From Roseovarius sp. (GTDB lineage Bacteria; Pseudomonadota; Alphaproteobacteria; Rhodobacterales; Rhodobacteraceae): a DNA stretch of 64,000 bases. Both the position numbers and the translations under genes were made by a program. Below are positions 40,943-50,652 of the stretch, one piece after another. The stretch is taken from positions 186,001 through 250,000 of the forward strand of contig JACIYT010000001.1 in NCBI GenBank assembly GCA_014359765.1, written 5' to 3'. The notes beneath the pieces were generated by a model. The model did no database searches. It had not been told where the DNA came from and saw only the letters and a program-made list of their open reading frames with translations. Position 1 is the stretch's first letter. Each line of letters begins with the position of its first letter.

Positions 40943-41019
40943 GGGCCTGTAGCTCAATTGGTCAGAGCAGGGCGCTCATAACGCCTTGGTTGGGGGTTCG
41001 AGTCCCTCCGGGCCTACCA
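40943..41019 (+). tRNA. tRNA with CAT anticodon (tRNA-Met or tRNA-Ile2), phage integration target
   Basis: A 77-base cloverleaf with encoded CCA. Acceptor GGGCCTG pairs with CGGGCCT, and loop CTCATAA carries anticodon CAT at 40977-40979. It is not an initiator tRNA. An annotation pipeline would probably call it tRNA-Met, but the AGCAG...CTTGGT context resembles tRNA-Ile2, whose C34 is modified to lysidine. The last 17 bases are duplicated at 50636-50652, marking it as the attachment site of the adjacent element. The tRNA remains intact. Confidence 0.9.
41003..41019 (+). repeat. attL core (3' end of the CAT-anticodon tRNA)
   Basis: The 17-base sequence TCCCTCCGGGCCTACCA, covering the T-arm end, acceptor 3' strand and CCA. 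It is an exact match to attR at 50636-50652. The flanking bases differ on both sides, so the identity block is exactly 17 bases. Confidence 0.93.
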
Positions 41020-41028
41020 AACCCCATT

Positions 41029-42147
41029 CTATTTTCCTTTCTTTTCAACAACTTGGCCTGAATTTTTGGCGAACCTAGAGGGTAGGTTCACCACGGTTTG
41101 TTCCCGATTTGGCCGGGTGATCAGCTTGCCAATGGCAGAGTCGGCCAGCCCTTCACGGGTTGCGGCTTCGGTATAGCGTTGCACCTCTGCCAGCGTCTTG
41201 TGTCCAGTGATTGACATGATTTCATGTGCAGAAGCTCCAGCCTCTGCCAGTCGTCGCGCACATGCCTTGCGCAGGCCATGCGACGAACAGGTTGCAAGCC
41301 CCGCCTTGTCGCACCACTCGCGCATTGCATTCCCAAGCCCGTCAGGTGATCGCGGCTGGCCGTAGGCGGTCGCAAGGAATGGCCGGTCATCCGGCAATCC
41401 GTCCAGAACCTCGGCCAAGTCCGGGTGAATTGGGATGCTCACCATAACGCCATTGGCCCGGATCGTCTTTTGCCGCCGATATTCGATCCGATCATTCTTT
41501 ATGCTCCATGGACCCAGCTTTACCGCGTCCACTCGGGCCGCGCCGGTGTAGAGCATAAGTGTCACCGCACGGTGTGCCAGGGTTCCCGGCTCGTGAACCT
41601 CGAAAAAGCGGGCAATCTCGCCCTCGTCCCAAGTGTGGTATCCGCCGCTCTCGATCCTGTAGGGCTTCACCAGCCTCGCAGGGTTGACTTTGATCCAGTC
41701 CAGCGCAATGGCGTGATCCAATAGTTGAGCCAGCCTCTTGCGCAGATTGTTTGCCGCCGCTGGCGTGTCCGCTTTCTCTGCCAGAATGGCCATGACGTGC
41801 TTGCGCTCAAGCTGCACAATGGGCTTGTCGCCATGCATCTTGCGGAGCTTTTCAATCGGCCCCTTGTAGGTGCGTTTTGTGCTTTCGCCGATGCTGCGCC
41901 ACTCGGGCGATTTGTAATAGCTGGCCACAAGATCGGACAAGGAACCGGGGATCGTTCGATCCGCACCGGCCCCGGCCTTGCGACGGCCAAGACATTCGGC
42001 CTCTGCCTCGGCATAGCGCCTCTTGAACTCGTCGCTGCCGTAGTCGGTCCCCAGATCGCGGGAAAAACCCTTGCGGCGATATCGCCACCGGGTGCGCCCG
42101 TGACGGTCTCGATATGACTTCGCCTCGGGAAACTGAGAACGCTTCAC
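41029..42147 (-). CDS. Tyrosine-type integrase of the element
   Basis: A 372-residue site-specific recombinase. The N-terminal part binds arm-type DNA (RDRHGRTRWRYRRKGFSRDL), a SAM-like core-binding domain spans about 65-165, and the catalytic domain has TGAARVDAVKLG (Arg), HGLRKACARRL (His-x-x-Arg), GHKTLAEVQRYTEA (His and nucleophilic Tyr). It starts with GTG at 42147, overlapping the stop of the upstream small gene (GTGA), and ends 9 bases from attL, transcribed towards the tRNA. It probably catalyses integration at the CAT tRNA. Confidence 0.93.
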   Translation of the reverse strand: MKRSQFPEAKSYRDRHGRTRWRYRRKGFSRDLGTDYGSDEFKRRYAEAEAECLGRRKAGAGADRTIPGSLSDLVASYYKSPEWRSIGESTKRTYKGPIEKLRKMHGDKPIVQLERKHVMAILAEKADTPAAANNLRKRLAQLLDHAIALDWIKVNPARLVKPYRIESGGYHTWDEGEIARFFEVHEPGTLAHRAVTLMLYTGAARVDAVKLGPWSIKNDRIEYRRQKTIRANGVMVSIPIHPDLAEVLDGLPDDRPFLATAYGQPRSPDGLGNAMREWCDKAGLATCSSHGLRKACARRLAEAGASAHEIMSITGHKTLAEVQRYTEAATREGLADSAIGKLITRPNREQTVVNLPSRFAKNSGQVVEKKGK

Positions 42148-42326
42148 GGCAGAACCTCATCCCATTCATTGCCGGTGTTCGCACCCGGCCCGCACTCGGA
42201 AAAGATCACGATCTTGCCGGTGCGCTGATCAACCTCGATACGCCCCACCGCCAGACCAGCCGCAACAGCGCCCTTGACGGCGCGGGTCACGTCGATCTGT
42301 TTCACGGTGGCGCGGGTGTTGGACAT
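42144..42326 (-). CDS. Small hypothetical protein of the lysogeny module
   Basis: A 60-residue protein (MSNTRATVKQIDVTRAVKGA at the start, GRIEVDQRTGKIVIFSE in the middle). No family recognised. Its ATG lies 1 base after the stop of the Arc-type gene and its own stop overlaps the integrase GTG, so all three are one coupled transcript. It could be an excisionase-like or integrase-modulating factor, but no DNA-binding motif is evident. Confidence 0.75.
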   Translation of the reverse strand: MSNTRATVKQIDVTRAVKGAVAAGLAVGRIEVDQRTGKIVIFSECGPGANTGNEWDEVLP

Positions 42327-42327
42327 G

Positions 42328-42486
42328 TTACGCGCTCGCACTTTCTTCGGGTTGATAGATGGTGCGCAGGTGCTGGACGATTTGCGCATTCATGGAGCGG
42401 CCCTCGCGCGCCGCCGCGTCCTTTACTTGGTGTTTCAGTTCGTCGGGGATACGCAGCGCAACCTGGGCAATGTTTTTCGTTTTCAT
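42328..42486 (-). CDS. Arc-type ribbon-helix-helix repressor (integrase side)
   Basis: A 52-residue Arc-family protein: NIAQVALRIPDELKHQVKDA forms the beta-strand and first helix, and AREGRSMNAQIVQHLRTIY the rest, closely following the phage P22 Arc pattern. The start MKTKNIAQ at 42486 has AGAGAGG upstream; in-frame upstream Met codons have no such site. Divergent from a second Arc-type gene at 42587, with three palindromes between. Likely controls the integrase transcript and possibly its neighbour. Confidence 0.9.
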   Translation of the reverse strand: MKTKNIAQVALRIPDELKHQVKDAAAREGRSMNAQIVQHLRTIYQPEESASA

Positions 42487-42505
42487 TTCAAAGCCTCTCT
42501 GTCCA

Positions 42506-42567
42506 AGCATGTTGCTATAAAGCACTATGCTTGCCTTGTCGTCAAGGAAAAATTATAGCAAGGTGCT
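42506..42567. promoter_or_regulatory. Three AGCA-N3-TGCT operators between the divergent Arc-type genes
   Basis: Exact copies of AGCA-N3-TGCT occur at 42506-42516 (spacer TGT), 42521-42531 (CTA) and 42557-42567 (AGG), all inside the 100-base divergent promoter region. Centre distances are 15 and 36 bases. They overlap candidate promoters: TTGCCT-N17-TATAGC on the plus strand (42531-42559) and TTGACG with TTTATA on the minus strand. They are the obvious binding sites for one or both Arc-type proteins. Confidence 0.75.
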
Positions 42568-42586
42568 TGCAAAAAGGGTTTCGAGA

Positions 42587-42919
42587 ATGGCCAAGCCTCC
42601 GGTGTCAGAACAAGTGCAGGTCAATTTCCGCATGCCGGTTGATCTGCGTGATCGCATCAAGCGCAAGGCCGAAGAACACGGTCAAAGCATGAACGCTGAA
42701 ATTGTCGAAGCTCTAGAACACATGTTCCCCGCACCGCGCGGTGTAAAGGACGTGCTGGAGGATGTTATTACAGTGCTGATGTATGTGGAACCAGATCTCC
42801 GTGAGCGCGCGATTGAGGCTCTTGTCAAGGAAGCAGATAGCGGCTCGCTCTCGCGATGGGCAGAGGCATATGCGCATGCGGAAAAGGATATGACACACAG
42901 ATTCCCATGGGAGGAATAA
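42587..42919 (+). CDS. Arc-type ribbon-helix-helix regulator with C-terminal extension
   Basis: A 110-residue protein with an N-terminal Arc domain (EQVQVNFRMPVDLRDRIKRK and AEEHGQSMNAEIVEALEHMF) and about 55 extra residues, largely helical and acidic, ending MTHRFPWEE. The extension may mediate oligomerisation or effector binding. ATG 42587 is chosen over an in-frame start at 42527 because AAGGG precedes it and the earlier start would lie inside the operator region. Divergently transcribed from the shorter Arc-type gene. Confidence 0.88.
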   Translation: MAKPPVSEQVQVNFRMPVDLRDRIKRKAEEHGQSMNAEIVEALEHMFPAPRGVKDVLEDVITVLMYVEPDLRERAIEALVKEADSGSLSRWAEAYAHAEKDMTHRFPWEE

Positions 42920-42921
42920 AG

Positions 42922-43197
42922 ATGACTGAACCCACGACCTTCAACGAAACAGATTGGTCAGACTTGACCGGTAACGACAAAAAAACACTGCGTATCTTGT
43001 CGCATGTCGCTCTCAATTTCGAGCCTTTAGCAAAGTCCACAGGCGTTGGTCAGAAAAGCATGGACTCGCTTATCGAAAAAGGACTGGCGGTAGAAGGTGA
43101 GCCCTCCATGCATGGGCGAACTTTCAAGCTCACGGATAAGGGTTGGCTGGCCGTCGAATGGTTGCACGGTAGGAAAACTAGGGTCTATCCCTCATAA
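42922..43197 (+). CDS. Small winged-helix-like protein
   Basis: A 91-residue protein with a predicted helix-turn-helix/winged pattern: LRILSHVALNFEPLAKSTGV, then MDSLIEKGLAVEG and FKLTDKGWLAVEWL resemble the recognition helix and wing of small phage or MarR-like regulators. GGAGGA lies 8 bases before the ATG, 2 bases after the upstream Arc-type gene, so they are cotranscribed. Could be an antirepressor or second regulator. No family assigned. Confidence 0.75.
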   Translation: MTEPTTFNETDWSDLTGNDKKTLRILSHVALNFEPLAKSTGVGQKSMDSLIEKGLAVEGEPSMHGRTFKLTDKGWLAVEWLHGRKTRVYPS

Positions 43198-43201
43198 CCC
43201 C

Positions 43202-43228
43202 GCGCGCGGACGAGTCAGGCCCGCGCGC
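43202..43228. terminator. Hairpin between convergent transcripts of the element
   Basis: An 8-bp stem GCGCGCGG / CCGCGCGC with an 11-base loop, placed between the stop of the rightward regulator operon (43197) and the stop of the leftward head operon (43234). It may serve as a bidirectional terminator, though it lacks T-runs. Confidence 0.5.
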
Positions 43229-43233
43229 AGGAA

Positions 43234-43650
43234 TCAGCCCTTGGCCCGCCAGCGCCGGTTACGGTGAATGTTGCCGCAGCTCTTGGAGCAATAGAGCTTG
43301 TCCTTGCGCCTCGGCTGAAACGTCTCGCCGCACGCGATACAGGGCCGGGGTGCTGGTGGGGGTTTGGCTCGGCTTGGCCTCGGAACCCGTCGCCGGTAAT
43401 TGCGAAGTGTGCAGGCATTGGAACAGAACCGGGTGCCGCGCCGCTTCCAGAACTCGGCCCCGCACTCGACACACTCACCCCGCGTCGGCCCGATCTGTGG
43501 CGCGTTTACATCATGCCAGTGCGCTGATCTGCAAACGACAGAACAAAAACGCTGGCTCGGTTTCCGCTCCTCTGGCTCGGGCAGGGGATCGCCGCACCAG
43601 GCGCACCACGCGTCCGGCTCGATCTCAAGCGGCTCAAGCCGCCTCGGCAT
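43234..43650 (-). CDS. Triple zinc-knuckle protein of the element
   Basis: A 138-residue basic protein with three successive CxxCG...(F/Y)CSxxC knuckles: CAWCGDPL...RFCSVVC, CVECGAEF...RFCSNAC and CIACGETF...LYCSKSC. The pattern resembles FCS/MYM-type zinc fingers. The linker RRRVPRPSRAKPPPAPRP is basic and could contact nucleic acid. The start at 43650 lies within the end of the previous gene (17-base overlap); the longer frame to 43848 overlaps that gene fully. Last gene of the head operon. Role unknown; DNA recognition for packaging or host takeover are possibilities. Confidence 0.78.
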   Translation of the reverse strand: MPRRLEPLEIEPDAWCAWCGDPLPEPEERKPSQRFCSVVCRSAHWHDVNAPQIGPTRGECVECGAEFWKRRGTRFCSNACTLRNYRRRVPRPSRAKPPPAPRPCIACGETFQPRRKDKLYCSKSCGNIHRNRRWRAKG

Positions 43651-44029
43651 TGAAAGCTCTATTCCACTTTTGCGCGCAGCTGGCCGAACAGTAGTGAACT
43701 TGCCGCTCGCGCAACGGGATACCGCAATTCCTGCACCAGGCCTCGCGCACCAGCAGCCCGGTGGCCGCGTGCTGCCCCTCGGCCCATGTCGGCCTGACTG
43801 CCCGCGCCAGCCGCAGGGCCTCGCGCACCACGTCGCGCGCCGCCTCATCGGCCACCGGCCAGGACCAGCCGGTGAGGCACAGGCTTGATCTCAATTCGGC
43901 GATGAACACTCCTTCATAAGCAAACTTCGACGGGATGGTGCCATCCTCGAAATCGCGCCAGATAACACCAGCCATGACCTTCGCCATCCGCTCCGCTGAC
44001 CTGACCTTGTGCTTATGCCTCCGGGCCAT
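43634..44029 (-). CDS. Single zinc-knuckle protein of the element
   Basis: A 131-residue protein. The N-terminal 100 residues (opening MARRHKHKVRSAERMAKVMA, then GVFIAELRSSLCLTGWSWPV) have no recognised family. The C-terminus carries one CRNCGIPL...HYCSASC knuckle, the same type that is repeated three times in the next protein. It overlaps portal by 17 bases at its start and the triple-knuckle gene by 17 bases at its end, implying tight coupling. The shared motif suggests the two proteins work on the same target or derive from duplication. Confidence 0.75.
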   Translation of the reverse strand: MARRHKHKVRSAERMAKVMAGVIWRDFEDGTIPSKFAYEGVFIAELRSSLCLTGWSWPVADEAARDVVREALRLARAVRPTWAEGQHAATGLLVREAWCRNCGIPLRERQVHYCSASCAQKWNRAFNAEAA

Positions 44030-45077
44030 CGGCCCAGCCCACCAGCCGCATTGCCGCCTCGGGGTCGATGCCAGCCTCTTTCGCCTCGGCCATGCTCTTG
44101 ATGATCGCGCTCATGGCCCGCGCCCGCCCGCCAGTGTCATAGGCCTGGGTCGGGGTTTCAACGTCGATCTGGACGGCACCTCCCAGCTTCATGCTGGCCT
44201 CGTCGCTGATCAGCTTTGCAATGGGCGAAAGCGTGTATTGGACAAGATGACGTTGCACCTCACGAAACACTGGCCCGGTGCTGGCCGGGTTGAAGAACGC
44301 CGCCGGGACGCCGAAAACCTCGGCCACCGCGCCACGCGCCTGCGCCCATATCTGCGCCGCCTCGGCCTTGCCCAAGTCGGGGGTCAGATCGTCACGCCGC
44401 TGGCCCAGCTGGGGGTTCATGCCCGCCGCCGTCGCTTGCGCCACGCCTTCGATAATCAACGTCTGCCCTTGCTTGCCCCGGATCGCGCCGCGCATCGCTT
44501 CCATATCCTCGGGCGAACTATCGGGCAAAGGCAACACCTGCGAACCGATCGGTGCATCCCGAAACGTATCGCGCAAAGCGGACTCGATCTCGTGCAGCAG
44601 GTTTGCCGACAATGCCGCGCGCCGCAGGGGTGACGTGCCGGTCCATGGCGCCACGGGATCGGACCCGATACGGACATGCAGAACCTCTTGGGCCAGCGCC
44701 GTCATGCTGCGCCCGCCGCCCGCCTCGGGGATCGAAACCCGGTATGCCACGGGCCTGCCGCCTCTGGTGGAAACGTCCCAGTCGCTGGCCGGGATAATAT
44801 GCTCGCCAATGACGCCGACGAACTCGCCACGCAGGGCCAGAGACCGCCCGATCAGGGCCATGGTGGCCCGGTCCAATAGATCAGTGCCGATCACGTCAGC
44901 GCCGCTTAGAACGCCCTCCCAGAGGCTGATGCAGGCCTGCGCGGCCGATGTCACCTCGGCCACGTCGGACCCGCCGCTGATGTAGCTGGCCCGTGCCGCC
45001 ATGATCGCCGCCGTGTAACCGGGTCCGGTGGCGCGGGTCTCGATAGGCTTGCGCCGGAAAATGTCCATGATACCCAT
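44013..45077 (-). CDS. HK97-family portal protein
   Basis: A 354-residue protein forming the dodecameric portal through which DNA enters the capsid. MGIMDIFRRKP and SYISGGSDVAEVTSAAQACI at the N-terminus, WTGTSPLRRAALSANLLHEI in the stem region, and FGVPAAFFNPASTGPVFREV near the clip are typical of Phage_portal (PF04860-like) proteins. Length is at the short end for the family. Its ATG overlaps the stop of the sigma-4 gene by one base (TGATG). Confidence 0.9.
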   Translation of the reverse strand: MGIMDIFRRKPIETRATGPGYTAAIMAARASYISGGSDVAEVTSAAQACISLWEGVLSGADVIGTDLLDRATMALIGRSLALRGEFVGVIGEHIIPASDWDVSTRGGRPVAYRVSIPEAGGGRSMTALAQEVLHVRIGSDPVAPWTGTSPLRRAALSANLLHEIESALRDTFRDAPIGSQVLPLPDSSPEDMEAMRGAIRGKQGQTLIIEGVAQATAAGMNPQLGQRRDDLTPDLGKAEAAQIWAQARGAVAEVFGVPAAFFNPASTGPVFREVQRHLVQYTLSPIAKLISDEASMKLGGAVQIDVETPTQAYDTGGRARAMSAIIKSMAEAKEAGIDPEAAMRLVGWADGPEA

Positions 45078-45289
45078 CAGACCACCCCACGATTGAGGGG
45101 GTGTTTCAGCTTGCGAAGTGCTTCGTTTTCGATCCTCTCCACCTGATCGGGGGCAACGCCGATCGCCTGCGCCGTCTCCTCGATCGTGTGATCGGTGGGC
45201 ATGCCTATCCCGAACCGCAGGCGCAACACGCGCTCCTCCATAGGGGGCAGGATCGCCATTGCGTCCTTGGTGATTGAGTGCATGTCCAT
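45077..45289 (-). CDS. Stand-alone sigma-70 region 4-like protein
   Basis: A 70-residue protein whose residues 14-64 follow RpoD region 4 closely: LPPMEERVLRLRFGIGMPTD, then HTIEETAQAIGV and NEALRKLKHPLNRG. The parts that contact the RNA polymerase beta-flap and the HTH scaffold are kept. In the recognition helix the RpoD residues that read the -35 box (TRERIRQ) are replaced by APDQVER. It could be a flap-binding modulator of host RNA polymerase, a regulator with altered specificity, or an HTH recruited for packaging. GGAGG lies 8 bases before ATG 45289; encoded between protease and portal. Confidence 0.88.
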   Translation of the reverse strand: MDMHSITKDAMAILPPMEERVLRLRFGIGMPTDHTIEETAQAIGVAPDQVERIENEALRKLKHPLNRGVV

Positions 45290-45291
45290 TG

Positions 45292-45837
45292 TTACAGCCT
45301 CCAGCGTTTGAGGGGGTGATCCGTTACGCGCGTAACGGTTTCAGCCTGCCAGCACCGCGCCTCGACTTGCGCCGCCTCGAACGCTGGCCGGGTGACGGTG
45401 CTCAATTCAAACAGCTCGGCACGGGTGACACGCCGCAGCAGCCCATTGCCCCGCCGCTCGATCGTCTCGCCACCGGACGGAACCCTGAAACCCGGTGACA
45501 AGCCCCGGATAAGCCCCGCGCGATGTGCTGCAAGGAAGTCTTGCGCCCAGCTGGTGCCGCCCTCGATGCGCGCCTCGAACTCCAGCGCCTGGTCGGTTTC
45601 CCTGATCTCCAGAGACCCCGCCTGCCGGCTGGCCAATGGCCTGTTGAAGTCGTGGCCCGATAGCAGATGAACGTCGTCTCCCGCCTCGATCCGGCCAGCG
45701 AACGCGCGCGCCTCGAACAGCTCGAACCGCCCAGGCACAAGCTCGGTTTCGACGTTGTAGGGGAAGCGCCCGGAAACCCGGACGCCCCCATCTGTTGCGC
45801 GCAGCTCCAGCGCGCCGGATGCTACGCCATGGAGCAT
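45292..45837 (-). CDS. HK97-family prohead protease
   Basis: A 181-residue serine protease that matures the capsid. LLSGHDFNRPLASRQAGSLE carries the catalytic His, GLIRGLSPGFRVP the Ser, and ELFELSTVTRPAFEAAQVEA is the conserved C-terminal strand of the family. The gene begins with an ATG that shares one base with the capsid stop (TAATG). The order capsid-protease-portal is reversed relative to phage HK97. Confidence 0.92.
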   Translation of the reverse strand: MLHGVASGALELRATDGGVRVSGRFPYNVETELVPGRFELFEARAFAGRIEAGDDVHLLSGHDFNRPLASRQAGSLEIRETDQALEFEARIEGGTSWAQDFLAAHRAGLIRGLSPGFRVPSGGETIERRGNGLLRRVTRAELFELSTVTRPAFEAAQVEARCWQAETVTRVTDHPLKRWRL

Positions 45838-47099
45838 TAGGCAAGCTCCAGACCGGTCAGGACGCGCAGCTGCACGGGCCGCGCTACGGTAACGTCCATT
45901 GTGGCCAGCGCCGTCAGCCGCAGCCCGCCGGATGCCGCATCCGAGAACGGATCGCGGATCACGTCAACCGCGCCCCATGCCCCGATAAAGAACGGTGCCA
46001 CGCCGCCCGTGGTGGTGGTCAACAGCGCCGTGGTAGCGGCCGGGGTGCCGCTCGGTGCCGCCAGCCCGTTGGACGTGGTGCTGATCTGCCCCAGAAGCGC
46101 CGCCAGCTTGTCCCACTCGGTCAGACCGGACCCAGCATCAAACATTTTGCCGTCAAGGAAAGCCCAAAGCTCGGGACGGATCATCGCCCGCACGGCGCTG
46201 CCACCGGATGCCGCGTTGTCTGCCATGAAGGCCGCCACAGCCGCCCGGAACGCCGCCACGCTGGCCGTGGCCGCAACTGCCGTCTCAACGATGCCGTAGG
46301 TCGCTGCGCCGCTGATGACGCCAAGCGGCTCACCAGACGCGCCCGCGCCGTTGAACACTGCCGCGTCCATGGCCTGCCCGATAGCGCCTGCCATGTCGCG
46401 CCGCACTGCCTGCTCCAGCGCCGAACCGGACTGTTTCAGGGACCGCCGGGTGATCTTCATCTGGACGCCCAGAGTATTGGCCGGGGTCATGGCCCGGTCG
46501 GTTGTGGCGTATGCCGCCGGGGCCGCAACGTCTCCGGTCTCGGAGGCCTGCCAGCCTGCCGACACGCTCGACGTCACAACGGGCCATTCTGCCGCGCCCT
46601 GGTCGATCGCAATCATTTGCCCGCCCATGGCGCTGGCCATGCTATCGGGAAACAGCCGGTCGATGATCGGGCGGGTGCTTACAGGTGCCGGGGTGCCGGT
46701 GCTGATCGTCTCGCCCGCGCGCTGTTCCAGCGCCTGCCACGGAACCGGGATACCGCGAAACCCGCCCTGACTGCGCAGCTCCTGAACGATCTCGCCCGTC
46801 TGCCCGTCGATCTGCCGCCCCTCGTCCAGGTGCAGCGCAACCTGCCGCATCTCGAACCCGGCCATCATCTCGGCCCACTCGCGGCTGGAACGGGTTTCAA
46901 GCTCGCCCTTGGCCGCTTGGCGCTGCTCGTCCTCATTGATCAGGGCCGCGCGGAACCTGCGCTCATTGTCCTGATATTCGCGGTCCATCGCGTCCATCTT
47001 GGACCGGGTTTCGTCGGTCAGGGTTTCAGCCCCGGCCAGCTCAGCCAGCGCCTGCCGGATTTCCGACTGCCGACGCTGGATTTTCACGGAATCAAGCAT
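45837..47099 (-). CDS. HK97-fold major capsid protein
   Basis: A 420-residue capsid precursor. Residues 1 to about 110 form a helical delta/scaffold domain (RRQSEIRQALAELAGAETLT and EYQDNERRFRAALINEDEQR) that the adjacent protease would remove. The HK97 core follows, with TPANTLGVQMKITRRSLKQS, AVFNGAGASGEPLGVI (the A-loop region) and FIGAWGAVDVIRDPFSDAA. AAGGAG precedes ATG 47099; upstream in-frame codons belong to a shadow frame. Having its own complete capsid gene separates this element from satellites that only remodel helper capsids. Confidence 0.93.
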   Translation of the reverse strand: MLDSVKIQRRQSEIRQALAELAGAETLTDETRSKMDAMDREYQDNERRFRAALINEDEQRQAAKGELETRSSREWAEMMAGFEMRQVALHLDEGRQIDGQTGEIVQELRSQGGFRGIPVPWQALEQRAGETISTGTPAPVSTRPIIDRLFPDSMASAMGGQMIAIDQGAAEWPVVTSSVSAGWQASETGDVAAPAAYATTDRAMTPANTLGVQMKITRRSLKQSGSALEQAVRRDMAGAIGQAMDAAVFNGAGASGEPLGVISGAATYGIVETAVAATASVAAFRAAVAAFMADNAASGGSAVRAMIRPELWAFLDGKMFDAGSGLTEWDKLAALLGQISTTSNGLAAPSGTPAATTALLTTTTGGVAPFFIGAWGAVDVIRDPFSDAASGGLRLTALATMDVTVARPVQLRVLTGLELA

Positions 47100-47415
47100 T
47101 GATTTCTCCTTTGTGCTCGATAGGTTTCGCCGCCAATTCAGCGACAGCTTTGCGCCACGCTTGGCGCTTCGGATCAGGGACGCGCCCCAATTCCTTGTTG
47201 GTCTCCTTGGTATGACAGGGACCGCACAGTGTGACGCAATTCGACGGATCGAACGCCAGCTCGGGGTGATCGGCCACGCGCTTGACGTGATGCACCTCCA
47301 GCCGCCGCCGCGCGCCACAGTGCTGGCATTGCCAATTGTCCCTCTCCAGGACGCCGTGCCGCACCGCTGGCCATTGTTTGGACGTCAACGCCCATCTGCC
47401 CGGTCGCTTGGTCAT
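47092..47415 (-). CDS. HNH endonuclease of the packaging module
   Basis: A 107-residue HNH nuclease. The zinc pair CQHC, the HNH core LEVHHVKRVADHPELAFDPS, and the second pair LCGPCHTKE are all present. HNH proteins encoded next to terminases stimulate terminase cutting at cos sites in HK97-like phages. This suggests a cos-type packaging mechanism. It overlaps the capsid start by 8 bases and the head-closure stop by 4. Confidence 0.92.
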   Translation of the reverse strand: MTKRPGRWALTSKQWPAVRHGVLERDNWQCQHCGARRRLEVHHVKRVADHPELAFDPSNCVTLCGPCHTKETNKELGRVPDPKRQAWRKAVAELAAKPIEHKGEINA

Positions 47416-47759
47416 GTCAGCGGCCCCTCGACGGTGAACTCCAAGAGCTGCCGCCGCTGGCCTGCTTGCGGCTCCTTGACGCCGACAATGCCCCAGAGCT
47501 GGCCCTCGTGTTTGATCCGATCATCTGCCGTGATGCCGCGCGTGAACGCCGTGCTGCGCACCTGAAACCGGATCATTGACCGCTCGCGGAACACGCCTGC
47601 CGCCACGGTTTCGGTATCGCTCACGTCCATGCGCAGCGCCGGGATAACCTCGCCAAGATCAGACCAGACCAGGGTGGCCCCGCCGAATGGGTCGCTCGCC
47701 TCGGTGGCCCGCTGGAACTGAATTTGCCGGTCCAGTGCCGACCCGATAGCCCTTGTCAT
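47412..47759 (-). CDS. Head closure/head-tail joining protein
   Basis: A protein of 115-117 residues of the phage head-closure type (SPP1 gp16-like, PF05521-like): LDRQIQFQRATEASDPFGGA, SDLGEVIPALRMDV, FRERSMIRFQVRST and GQLWGIVGVKEPQAGQRRQL form the small beta-barrel pattern. ATG 47759 overlaps the terminase stop (ATGA); ATG 47765 is the alternative start. It would seal the filled head and provide the docking surface for a helper tail. Confidence 0.85.
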   Translation of the reverse strand: MTRAIGSALDRQIQFQRATEASDPFGGATLVWSDLGEVIPALRMDVSDTETVAAGVFRERSMIRFQVRSTAFTRGITADDRIKHEGQLWGIVGVKEPQAGQRRQLLEFTVEGPLT

Positions 47760-49285
47760 GCCCATGCCAGCCTCGCCTTGCTTTCAGGTTGCCCCTGCAT
47801 CCGAACGCCTTGCGCCACAGCAATGACGGTTGCCGCCGCCGCGTCGATCCGGCCCGTCGATCGGCCTCGGGCCAGCTTGTGGTTGCCTGCCGGATCCACG
47901 AGCGTGATCGCGTCAGAGAACGCTGATCGCAGCAGAAGGGACGGGGTGGTTTTCACGCGCCCCTCGAACAGCGCCCTCCGGAACCTCTCGCAATCTTCAC
48001 TGCCATCGCGCCAGCCCATGCCGCGCCAGACGCATGGAACGCGGTCCAGACTTGCCCCGCGCAGCGCCTCGACAAATTCGGCATGGCGGAACCGATCGCC
48101 CACGATTGCCGCCGGTGCCTGCCCGTCCAGCAAGGCCACGACATTGGCAAGGAAACGATCCACCGGAACCGTGGTGTCGCCCATTGTGATCAGCTCGCCC
48201 CGATCGGCCATCTCGGTGTAACGCCCTCCCACGCCATCAGCCGCGCCACGATCGGCCAGCCCCGGGTTGGTGGGGAACGCCGCGACACATTCCAGCCGCC
48301 CGGTGGTGGGCCAGAACAGCGCCGCCGCCGACATGCTGCGCGAACCGCCAAGATCAACGCCCAGGACAACCGGCCCGTCACGCGGTGGCAGGGCCTCGGG
48401 GGAAACCTCAGCCGCAAGCCATTCGTCTATGGTGATCAGAACCGACCTGTCATCGGACGCGACACGCTCATTGCGATTGAGATTGCGAAAGCTCGACAGG
48501 GCCGATCCGCCGCGCGCAATGGCCCTCTTGGCCTGCGCCACAAGCCACTCGGGTGTCGCCCCGATGCCTTGCTGCGCGCCGGGGTTGGCCACCAGCAGCG
48601 ACTCAAGATCGTCAGGTGGCAGGCCCGGCTCGGGGCGATGCTCCTGCACGTAAGAACCCGGTGGCGGTTCATCCAGCCAGCGGGAAAAGGTGTTGGTGTC
48701 GTCGGGTGCGCTCGTGCTGATAATCAGCGCCCGGCCATCCCTCTTGCCCAGACCGGACAAGATAGCGTTCTCCAGGTTGTCGCCCTTCTCGCGCTCCCAT
48801 GCCGCCCGCTCATCGAGGATCGCCATTGTCGGTGCGCCGCCCAGAATAGACCGCCCGTCTGCCGGGATAACACGGGCCAGCCCGCCGCCGTTCAAGTCGG
48901 TTTCCACCTCCAGCCGGGACCCGCGCCGGATGGTGAACGCCTCTTGCTCATCCTCGGGCAGGCCCTGAATGAACCCCACCAGGAACCCGAACGCCGTCTT
49001 TGCCTGGTCACGATTGCGGGCCGCGAAGATAATCTCGCGCTTGGGCTGGTGCGCTATTTCGCCCACCAGATGCCCCAGAGCCAAGCCCGCGCTCAAAGCC
49101 GTCTTGGCATTGCCGCGCCCGATCGAAAGCAAGGCAACCGCGCAGTCCTTGGCGAAAGCGCCGCGCACAAATTCCTTCTGGAACTTGGCAAGCCGCATGG
49201 GTTTGCCTGCCAAGCGCCCCTCGGGGATGGTCAGCTGCGACAGAAACCGCAGCGCCGCAACAGCGTCCTTAGAGGCGCGGGCCAT
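47756..49285 (-). CDS. Terminase large subunit
   Basis: The 509-residue packaging motor. Walker A-like LLSIGRGNAKTALSAG and Walker B MAILDERAAW define the ATPase half. The nuclease half has RNase H-like acidic positions in VVLGVDLGGSRSMSAAALFW and GRSTGRIDAAAATVIA. GGGGAGGGG precedes ATG 49285, whereas the longer frame to 49384 has no site. No adjacent small-terminase gene is recognisable, which is unusual for this family. About 150 bases upstream separate it from the connector gene and include a 10-base direct repeat CTACACGCCT at 49438 and 49452. Confidence 0.93.
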   Translation of the reverse strand: MARASKDAVAALRFLSQLTIPEGRLAGKPMRLAKFQKEFVRGAFAKDCAVALLSIGRGNAKTALSAGLALGHLVGEIAHQPKREIIFAARNRDQAKTAFGFLVGFIQGLPEDEQEAFTIRRGSRLEVETDLNGGGLARVIPADGRSILGGAPTMAILDERAAWEREKGDNLENAILSGLGKRDGRALIISTSAPDDTNTFSRWLDEPPPGSYVQEHRPEPGLPPDDLESLLVANPGAQQGIGATPEWLVAQAKRAIARGGSALSSFRNLNRNERVASDDRSVLITIDEWLAAEVSPEALPPRDGPVVLGVDLGGSRSMSAAALFWPTTGRLECVAAFPTNPGLADRGAADGVGGRYTEMADRGELITMGDTTVPVDRFLANVVALLDGQAPAAIVGDRFRHAEFVEALRGASLDRVPCVWRGMGWRDGSEDCERFRRALFEGRVKTTPSLLLRSAFSDAITLVDPAGNHKLARGRSTGRIDAAAATVIAVAQGVRMQGQPESKARLAWA

Positions 49286-49436
49286 TATCCCCTCCCCGGA
49301 ATTTTTTGGGAAAGAGAAAAGAACACTCCACCACCGGTTACTGTCTGTGAGAAAAACGTCGGCATTGGGACCGCCAGCGCCCACAGGGCCCCAGAGCGCC
49401 TCACACAGTGCTGTTGAGCGTGTGCCATGTGTCCCC

Positions 49437-49985
49437 CTACACGCCTATCGCTACACGCCTGTAGCGCGCGCATATGCGGGCCGTTGAGGGTGCCAGTCGT
49501 GGGTTGTCGTCCATGTCGCCGCGCCTGTCGTAAAGCCGGATCGCCTGATCCAGGATCGCAAGGGACAGGTCGCGGGGCAGGGCTTCATAGTCAGTGCCAT
49601 AGCCTGCCGTGTATGTGACGCGCAGCTCGGCCTCGGGGGCCACGTCGAAGCGTAGGCTTGGATAGCGCCCGTGTATCAGGTGCCAGCCCGAGGCGATCGG
49701 TGTGGTGCTGCCATCCTCCTCGATCCGCTCAACCGTGACAAGCGCACCGGCTTGGACAGGGCCGATCGGCAATGACGCGACGGTGCCGATAGCTGATCCG
49801 GTGGCCACGATCTCTTGCGTCAACAGGGCCAGCGCCGTGTGGTGCTCGATCTCGTCTGCCGCCGCTCTTGCGTAGCGCATGGCGCTCATTGCCTCGGCCA
49901 GCTCGACGCGCAGGTGGTCGGCCAGATCGGGCACGTTGACCGGGTCGTTAGTCGCGGTGGGGTTTCGCTCGATCAGCTGCAACAT
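49437..49985 (-). CDS. Head-tail connector (gp6/phiE125 gp8-like)
   Basis: A 182-residue protein of the connector family that binds beneath the portal. VNVPDLADHLRVELAEAMSA opens the helical part, LRVTYTAGYGTDYEALPRDL and LAILDQAIRLYDRRGD are conserved, and the ending ARICARYRRVAIG is typical. It is the first clear gene of the leftward head operon, before the terminase, and its promoter-proximal DNA holds two tandem operator-like repeats. Confidence 0.85.
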   Translation of the reverse strand: MLQLIERNPTATNDPVNVPDLADHLRVELAEAMSAMRYARAAADEIEHHTALALLTQEIVATGSAIGTVASLPIGPVQAGALVTVERIEEDGSTTPIASGWHLIHGRYPSLRFDVAPEAELRVTYTAGYGTDYEALPRDLSLAILDQAIRLYDRRGDMDDNPRLAPSTARICARYRRVAIGV

Positions 49986-49997
49986 GGTGTGGCCCTA

Positions 49998-50057
49998 ATA
50001 GGTCAGCGTTGCTTACCGATACCACAGATGGGATAGGTCAGCAAGGTTTACCTATCC
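49998..50057 (-). promoter_or_regulatory. Tandem operator-like repeats before the head operon
   Basis: On the minus strand GGTAAACCTTGCTGACCTAT (50052-50033) and GGTAAGCAACGCTGACCTAT (50017-49998) match at 16 of 20 positions and are spaced 35 bases apart. The distal copy is also embedded in a perfect 8-bp inverted repeat GGATAGGT / ACCTATCC (50031-50038 and 50050-50057). They sit 13-72 bases before the connector start codon. They may bind an activator or repressor that times head-gene expression, or serve as iterons. Confidence 0.6.
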
Positions 50058-50262
50058 TCTCAGGACACACTCCCGCACCCGCTACTTCCCCCCGCCTAAG
50101 GCATGCAGGCCAGTGCGGCCCGACTTGGGGAAGTCCCTGCGCCTCCTCGATCCGTATCCACGCGATGCCCGTATCGTGGGCCAGCCGCTTCCCCCTGAGC
50201 TTTTCACTCAGCCCGCCCTTTGCAGCTCTGCGCCGGTGCGGTCCCCGATCAGTCAGGGCCAT
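50038..50262 (-). CDS. Possible small gene at the head of the capsid operon
   Basis: A 74-residue frame (MALTDRGPHRRRAAKGGLSE at the start, IAWIRIEEAQGLPQVGPHWP in the middle). AAGG precedes its ATG, and the composition is less Arg/Ala-biased than the shadow frames around it. It lies where a small terminase or regulator would be expected, but no such domain is recognised. Its stop falls within the distal operator repeat. Treat as tentative. Confidence 0.4.
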   Translation of the reverse strand: MALTDRGPHRRRAAKGGLSEKLRGKRLAHDTGIAWIRIEEAQGLPQVGPHWPACLRRGEVAGAGVCPERIGKPC

Positions 50263-50370
50263 ATTCTGGCCTTCACCCGCCGGTGGGTTTTAGTCGTCGC
50301 GTTTCTGAGCGGGCCTAGCAGGAGCCGGTGCCGCTCGGGGTGGGTTAAAAGTCCCCGGATCGTCATAAGC

Positions 50371-50394
50371 CCGTTGATGTCGCTCAACGGTCAA
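50371..50394 (-). promoter_or_regulatory. Palindrome overlapping a candidate -35 box
   Basis: CCGTTGA-N6-TCAACGG (50371-50390) is a perfect 7-bp inverted repeat. On the minus strand TTGACC (50394-50389) overlaps its edge and could be a -35 element for the leftward head operon, but the -10 (TTATGA or GCTTAT) is at suboptimal spacing. A repressor site over a promoter is the simplest reading. The rest of 50263-50635 has no recognisable gene; a packaging start site might lie here. Confidence 0.4.
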
Positions 50395-50635
50395 AGGCTA
50401 GGGCGGGTTGAAGGGATATGCCCGGTCTGGCCGGTTTGCTCCGATGGATTGACGCTCCAGCACCACGCCCATGATGCTGGGGCGCGGTGGCGTTATTCCG
50501 CTCGTAAAAGCGGCTCGGTTCTGCTATCAATGGGTTGGGAAAGGTTCACCAAACGGTGATTTTTGCCAATGTTTTCAATGGCAGGGAATGAACGTGTCGC
50601 CAGCGCAAGCGATTGATTGTGCTGGATATGTTCAA

Positions 50636-50652
50636 TCCCTCCGGGCCTACCA
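50636..50652 (+). repeat. attR core
   Basis: TCCCTCCGGGCCTACCA, identical to the 3' end of the CAT-anticodon tRNA at 41003-41019. It defines the right end of the element. The sequence beyond it (from 50653) is host DNA leading to the alpha/beta hydrolase gene. Confidence 0.93.

Follow-up and report, generated by a model that had tools for sequence, protein, structure and literature searches.

What is a complete set of phage head genes doing in less than 10 kb of DNA at the end of a tRNA gene? The question is raised by a 64,000-nucleotide stretch of the Roseovarius sp. assembly GCA_014359765.1 (contig JACIYT010000001.1, positions 186,001 to 250,000 of the forward strand), which we call the window and whose numbering we use throughout. 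Here a 9,650-bp element bounded by attachment (att) repeats lies at a tRNA-Met gene. A first-pass annotation, made from the letters alone, had proposed a satellite that makes its own heads, and this proposal finds good support in relatives that are likewise bounded by att repeats, differ little in size and sit at different tRNA genes; our scans of these found no tail families. We consider it very likely that the element is an integrated alphaproteobacterial phage satellite that works like a capsid-forming phage-inducible chromosomal island (cf-PICI), supplying its own heads and taking the tails of a helper. More surprising than the satellite itself is a structured RNA encoded beside its head genes.

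Boundaries and gene content

The host genome comprises 2.65 Mb in 41 contigs and is 97 percent complete. The att core, TCCCTCCGGGCCTACCA, occurs in two perfect copies, at 41003-41019 and 50636-50652, and is otherwise absent from both strands of the window; between 40001 and 52000 there is no other exact direct repeat of at least 15 bp. GC content is 63.1 percent in the element vs 68.0 percent in the rest of the window. An empty attB, which the first-pass annotation had suggested looking for, was seen in one of eight congener loci fetched (L260; L numbers are our locus labels), where tRNA-Met carries a single core copy, the element is absent and the same downstream gene comes next; the stretches fetched for the other seven hold no tRNA. 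The features of the element and its target are as follows (coordinates, strand, description, evidence).

40943..41019, +, tRNA-Met (cat), integration target; ARAGORN and Rfam tRNA
41003..41019, unstranded, att core copy 1, 17 bp, the 3' end of tRNA-Met; exact repeat search
41029..42147, -, tyrosine recombinase/integrase; PF00589 6e-13
42144..42389, -, 81-aa protein that adjoins the integrase in several relatives too; no Pfam or PHROG match
42328..42525, -, Arc/RHH-type regulator; PF03869 2e-7
42527..42919, +, divergent Arc-type regulator; PF03869 3e-11
42919..43197, +, small protein, putative open reading frame (ORF); no family above its cut-off
43234..43848, -, Cys-rich protein, probable zinc binding; weak zf-FCS match 5e-5, with counterparts in relatives
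43634..44029, -, Cys-rich protein, probable zinc binding; weak match, downstream of portal in relatives
44013..45077, -, portal protein; PF04860 3e-12
45077..45289, -, stand-alone sigma-70 region 4 protein (Sigma70_r4), in this copy only; PF04545 7e-10
45292..45837, -, prohead protease; PF04586 8e-21
45837..47099, -, HK97-fold major capsid protein; PF05065 5e-19
47092..47415, -, HNH endonuclease; PF01844 3e-9
47412..47765, -, head closure protein (stopper) Hc1, tail-facing neck protein; PF05521 5e-11, hhalign to Agrobacterium phage Rivra stopper
47756..49285, -, large terminase (TerL); phrog_9 5e-57
49437..49985, -, head-tail adaptor of the RcGTA Rcc01688 kind; phrog_442 1e-11, family profile vs PDB 6tba 5e-17
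49999..50054, unstranded, two palindromic operator-like sites (49999-50019 and 50034-50054) ahead of the head operon
50074..50363, -, structured RNA, ~260-nt consensus with pseudoknot, in head-operon sense; alignment, consensus structure, covariation
50636..50652, unstranded, att core copy 2, 17 bp; exact repeat search

The perfect att repeats, integrase, regulators and HK97-type head set in 9.65 kb were thus confirmed with exact coordinates. Consistent with the first-pass annotation, Pfam and PHROGs scans of the window ORFs, which left some small ORFs aside, identified no tail, lysis or replication family; neither an AlpA-like activator nor a primase was found in this copy. The element has several of the traits of a cf-PICI: capsid, portal, protease, large terminase and neck genes of its own, no tail or lysis gene recognised in these scans or in 15 relatives, and site-specific integration, as indicated by integrase, att repeats and the empty site in one congener. 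Two other proposed traits held in part. The sigma-4 protein is present, and as it had no tblastn match in the other family loci compared, it is not a feature of the lineage; the two proteins called zinc knuckles are Cys-rich and match zinc-binding families weakly. TerL probably starts at the ATG at 49285, judging from relatives that begin MARASK, and not at the upstream GTG at 49384. We also observed a 62-aa ORF (49285-49473) that overlaps the adaptor end and TerL start; similar ORFs were seen by eye in seven loci (two identical sequences).

Relatives at six types of tRNA gene

Of 84 genomes belonging to the genus, 11, counting its own, have TerL at 53 percent identity or more, two of them as partial matches. 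In IMG/VR, TerL retrieved 62 loci and the capsid 36, the two sets overlapping in part. All but one of the 62 contigs with this TerL measure at most 13.6 kb, and many of these are fragments. In the longest, at 53 kb, the satellite sits at one end, adjoined by an integrase of its own and by what looks, by eye, like a type I restriction locus; a protein panel, used in place of a family scan, showed no tail genes in the 40 of 53 kb read. Gene order (adaptor-TerL-(stopper)-HNH-capsid-protease-portal) is kept across relatives, with stopper and adaptor variable, and two Mesorhizobium contigs that start inside the capsid gene retain capsid-protease-portal.

A tRNA-anchored repeat of at least 15 bp was present in 12 of 59 loci tested, including the degenerate L094, and in four of six further family members; most IMG/VR contigs end at the provirus ends, so that terminal repeats are not visible there. 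With the window copy this gives 16 intact att-bounded elements of 9.65-11.4 kb (15 relatives of 9,981 to 11,417 bp), integrated at tRNA-Met, Glu, Cys, Asn, Phe and Arg. The same gene set at different tRNA genes in related strains, which the first-pass annotation had suggested seeking, was therefore found. L234, from a different genus, lies at tRNA-Met with 16 of 17 att bases identical.

We removed from the 15 relatives all ORFs matching the window TerL, capsid, portal, protease, HNH or integrase and scanned the remaining 132 of at least 60 aa. They matched 23 Pfam families, none of them for tail or lysis (one concerns head-tail attachment and the function of two is not assigned), and no tail or lysis family was among the first 25 of 85 PHROGs families. 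Families found in these ORFs include integrase, AlpA, Prim-Pol, AAA_25, D5 and head-tail connectors. The idea of a lineage without the usual primase did not hold: AlpA and the replication proteins Prim-Pol, PriCT_2, AAA_25, D5 and DUF5906 occur among relatives, and it is the window copy that lacks them. For head and neck genes in pairs of at least 66 percent identity, nonsynonymous divergence (dN) was 0.07-0.28 vs 0.28-1.43 for synonymous divergence (dS), which indicates purifying selection on the head genes. In a separate observation, the capsids of L112, L111 and L132 are 87 percent identical to that of the window and their TerL just 55-57 percent, which suggests that members exchange head and terminase genes by recombination.

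These results bear on whether the element is merely what deletion left of some ordinary HK97-type prophage. The window copy has no tail, lysis or replication genes, is the shortest of the 16 with early genes missing, and has degenerate kin: L094, at 6.6 kb, is missing protease and portal, and TerL carries an internal stop in four genus matches. A remnant is hard to square with elements at six tRNA types that agree in size and gene order, or with head genes conserved under purifying selection. Among phages, TerL matched at no more than 29 percent (best 20 of 74 records) and the portal had no match in those searched. We looked for the same genes within a longer, tailed prophage, the situation that the first-pass annotation associated with a remnant, and did not encounter it; a remnant is very unlikely.

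The relatives also speak to a miniature self-sufficient virus, spreading without a borrowed tail. This would account for the complete head set, and gene calling gave no integrase in some members known from small metagenomic contigs (L034, L087). Adaptor and stopper would be needless to such a virus, and they are kept and differ as modules between members; no lysis family was found, and the viral contigs tested have no terminal repeats of at least 12 bp. Circular viral contigs were likewise sought by terminal repeats and none found among those tested. We regard a self-sufficient virus as extremely unlikely.

Neck proteins and the proposed source of tails

If heads are made to receive foreign tails, kinship to phages might be expected where head and tail meet. 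Against phages, the capsid gave three weak matches at 25-26 percent and the adaptor none in a direct search. The stopper matched nine records. Six, at 37-42 percent, belong to four phages whose hosts are Paracoccus, Rhodobacter and Agrobacterium, and three, at 32 percent, to Tetraselmis viridis viruses. Profile comparison aligned the stopper with that of Rivra at 99.8 percent (hhalign, E 1e-28) and the capsid with the Rivra capsid at 0.4 percent. A phage-like stopper beside a capsid and portal without close phage relatives is the pattern expected of a tail-stealing head maker; we infer that the part contacting the tail is common to tailed phages of related hosts and the head is not, as tail borrowing predicts. 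Some members have no stopper of this kind or a different kind in its place (phrog_161), as expected if members are matched to different helpers. F7, which fills the protease-portal gap in other members and was considered as a possible homologue of the adaptor, aligned with it at 26 percent (hhalign), and PDB gave nothing useful for it.

The adaptor points in another direction. Its family profile has a single PDB match at E up to 1, Rcc01688 (6tba, 5e-17) of the Rhodobacter capsulatus gene transfer agent (RcGTA). It matches the adaptor of the gene transfer agent (GTA)-type locus in its own genome (98.4 percent, 5e-15) more closely than either phage adaptor tested, RcapNL (3e-11) or Rivra (1e-9). 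That locus, on contig C38 (L106) and named by gene order and adaptor, is the only other portal-bearing locus found in the genome. The host GTA might therefore be the helper, with satellite heads joining GTA tails. The stopper, which touches the tail, argues otherwise, as it fits Rivra far better than the GTA-type stopper (1e-5) or Rcc01689 in PDB (0.68). RcapNL has an adaptor and a stopper of the same kinds adjoining each other, so that a phage explains both, and cells producing GTAs rarely lyse. We think a GTA helper unlikely. The window element is itself no GTA, a reading that the first-pass annotation had judged unlikely.

Besides the adaptor's closer match to the GTA, several observations weigh against a head-making satellite with phage helpers. 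No helper was seen in the genome, although a helper prophage had been suggested: the two PF04860 portals belong to the window element and the GTA-type locus, and no TMP_3 protein was found, other protein families being outside this search. No small terminase (TerS) was recognised in the element, as had been noted at first; the PHROG of that name matches the HNH domain only. The genes of the 15 relatives come from a home-made gene finder, which may miss some. In L052 and L087 the gene that comes right behind portal encodes a tape-measure protein (547 and 584 aa), which shows that tail genes are not wholly foreign to the lineage. The window copy is devoid of recognised replication genes, and its RNA and att are separated by just ~290 bp, a region in which relatives hold further genes; it may accordingly be minimal or defective.

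A phage satellite with its own heads and a phage helper remains our preferred explanation. Boundaries, gene set, the lack of any recognised tail family, kept order and size, purifying selection and stopper kinship can be read from the sequence, and the following cycle, including excision, packaging, use of helper tails, the kind of helper and any activity of the window copy, is what we would propose from them. Infection or induction of a helper would lift repression, and the integrase would excise the element at tRNA-Met. In the window copy, where the relatives' replication genes are missing, DNA would be copied by helper or host functions. From the head operon would come a small HK97-type prohead, equipped with the element's portal, protease, TerL and HNH nuclease, to package the ~10-kb genome. 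The element's adaptor and stopper would then seal the head and fit it to the tails of a phage whose neck resembles that of RcapNL, Rivra or the Paracoccus phages, and the helper would lyse the cell.

Of the three HK97-type capsids found in the genome, one belongs to the window element, one to the GTA-type locus and one to another element that resembles a satellite (G000:C12, L107:2885-11952). This last element has 50-bp tRNA-Asn-like repeats 9.0 kb apart, an integrase and, by eye, replication-like ORFs (Toprim/DUF3987) and a P27-like small terminase ORF. Its HK97 capsid is matched at 4e-54 by that of a stretch read from E. coli O157:H7 EDL933, which we take to be the capsid-forming PICI EcCIEDL933. 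Neither a portal nor the RNA described below was found in it.

A predicted structured RNA beside the head operon

The block upstream of the adaptor is 72-88 percent conserved in relatives. A protein reading (ORFs u74 and 50113-50559) was rejected, as its indels are not multiples of three. Pattern and profile searches found full-length homologues in other loci, and we aligned 32 distinct sequences with MAFFT (mean identity 74 percent). The RNAalifold consensus with the pseudoknot has 51 pairs, and 98.0 percent of 1,620 alignment cells pair. The covariation score was 0.359 vs 0.120 (standard deviation 0.006) in 500 shuffles, and 0.060 or less when the structure was slid along the alignment, a control that favours the structure since it was derived from the alignment (the alignment was not fitted to it).

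A scan of all column pairs gave 14 with high mutual information and more than 90 percent pairing: 11 in predicted helices, one in the pseudoknot and two elsewhere. The pair 47-255 (mutual information 1.51, all standard pairs) exposed the pseudoknot of CCTNC with GNAGG, whose five pairs (alignment columns 44-48 with 254-258) are 99.4 percent paired, three having changed on both sides. G-U cells outnumber A-C cells by 49 to 11, consistent with an RNA that has the same sense as the head genes. Searches of Rfam 15 gave no match across it, with E cut-offs of 10 for the window and 3 for five relatives. Together, these alignments suggest a covariation-supported, pseudoknotted RNA class of ~260 nt that is absent from Rfam 15; a literature search of incomplete coverage found no title or abstract describing it, a weak sign of novelty.

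Two further readings of the block were considered. A cos site is not favoured, because the covariation and G-U excess indicate RNA in one sense and the same structure occurs beside different or no recognised large terminases. A head-operon leader as a general rule is weakened, because operator-like sites separate the RNA from the adaptor in the window and several islands' downstream genes run the opposite way. The operator-like palindromes occurred in 0 of 100 shuffles, with a pattern picked after the sites had been seen; similar motifs were noted by eye in some relatives.

Distribution and possible role of the RNA

Within the order, the RNA was detected in 31 of 390 genomes, which represent 23 of 139 genera. 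With stricter filters, which lose weak matches, it was found in two of 385 genomes of a class sample (its own and one marginal, E 2e-4) and one of 398 in a phylum sample (its own). Of 85 sources searched, most from this TerL family and six included for comparison, eight carry it; the RNA is therefore an accessory of the TerL family and not a constant part.

We fetched the contexts of 20 of the 38 order-level hits listed, nearly all from the top of the list. Six are satellites of the window type, three other satellite or small-phage types (L220, L229, L230), and six are islands whose serine and tyrosine recombinases form a complete or incomplete set (L224-L227, L231, L233), L184 being a seventh. 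The remaining five comprise L217 with an MmeI-type restriction gene, L228 with Cas3 nearby, L236 with a methylase adjoining the RNA, and L219 and L232. The recombinase islands (L184, L224-L227, L231, L233) share, in full or in part, a set made up of a large serine recombinase, two tyrosine recombinases (~347 and 565-620 aa) and a 215-417-aa protein; the RNA follows this set, and variable cargo follows the RNA, by eye HsdRMS-like genes in L184.

Other loci were also inspected. L108, L109, L158, L183 and L229 have portal, protease, capsid and TerS/TerL beside satellite-type regulators, together with proteins that by eye resemble a tail tube and a long tape measure. These loci seem to stand between satellite and phage. 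In L156, L176, L171, L220 and L230 we saw capsid, TerS-like and/or tape-measure-like genes by eye and recognised no large terminase; the repeats of L220 (in tRNA-Leu) are 10.4 kb apart and those of L230 (in tRNA-Cys) 9.1 kb. L154, L173 and L182 resemble one phage, by eye only.

We lean towards regarding the RNA as the founder of a new class, a common control device of Rhodobacterales mobile elements of different ancestry. As it moves between elements with different terminases and is nearly confined to one order, its role most likely lies in host transcription or in another step shared by helper and host. put-like antitermination is an example of an RNA acting in transcription, and a host-linked role of this kind would fit both the near-restriction to one order and the position before cargo. 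The opposite orientation of genes downstream of the RNA in several islands weighs against a role in transcription. Once learnt, that role would reveal what satellites, probable phages and defence islands have in common.

Comparison with known systems

Our comparison with described cf-PICI head modules covered EcCIEDL933. Like it, the window lineage has an integrase, an AlpA-type regulator and primase (here in relatives), and its own capsid, protease, portal, neck proteins, HNH and TerL; both have the order capsid-protease-portal and no annotated tail or lysis genes. In the window lineage, by contrast, the head module is permuted, with the terminase first, and no counterpart of the P27-type TerS of EcCIEDL933 was recognised in the window element. 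EcCIEDL933 (CP-933C) is described as ~14.9 kb, vs 9.65-11.4 kb here. The protein searches suggested at first pass show remote kinship: protease 33 percent (6e-14), TerL 25 percent (5e-7), portal 0.003, capsid none. The element would be a cf-PICI by life-style, with at most a remote relationship to EcCIEDL933.

Described cf-PICI capsids fall into three radiations (PMC11389934), and one account places cf-PICIs mainly in Enterobacteriaceae, Pasteurella, Morganellaceae and Firmicutes, with an average of 14 kb (PMC10803314). If alphaproteobacteria have a lineage of their own, with elements of 10-11 kb in 11 of 84 genus members, this life-style would reach further than that account describes, and natural elements would become available whose neck proteins indicate candidate helpers. 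A literature search with incomplete cf-PICI and SatelliteFinder coverage found no title or abstract describing the lineage, a weak sign of novelty; the Charybdis preprint (PMC12324425) appears unrelated to the element. Putative tape-measure genes in cf-PICIs are already in print (PMC12987554, Extended Data Fig. 10), so those of L052 and L087 are a further instance and not a novelty; the window element has none.

With RcGTA the element shares a homologous head-tail adaptor, Rcc01688. Unlike RcGTA, it has an integrase, att sites, regulators and a tRNA site and no tail family, and its capsid has no detectable likeness to the GTA-type capsid of its own genome. The tailed phages RcapNL, Rivra, Pthi1 and Shpa have a stopper Hc1 37-42 percent identical to that of the element, and the adaptors of RcapNL and Rivra are remotely related to its own; unlike it, all four are full phages of 38-44 kb with tails. 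RcapNL differs in its order (terminase-portal-protease-capsid) and Rivra in a capsid unrelated at the sensitivity used. The RNA recalls the large RNAs of phages and mobile elements, GOLLD, ROOL and HEARO: it differs from them in having no Rfam 15 match and resembles them as a long structured RNA on mobile elements.

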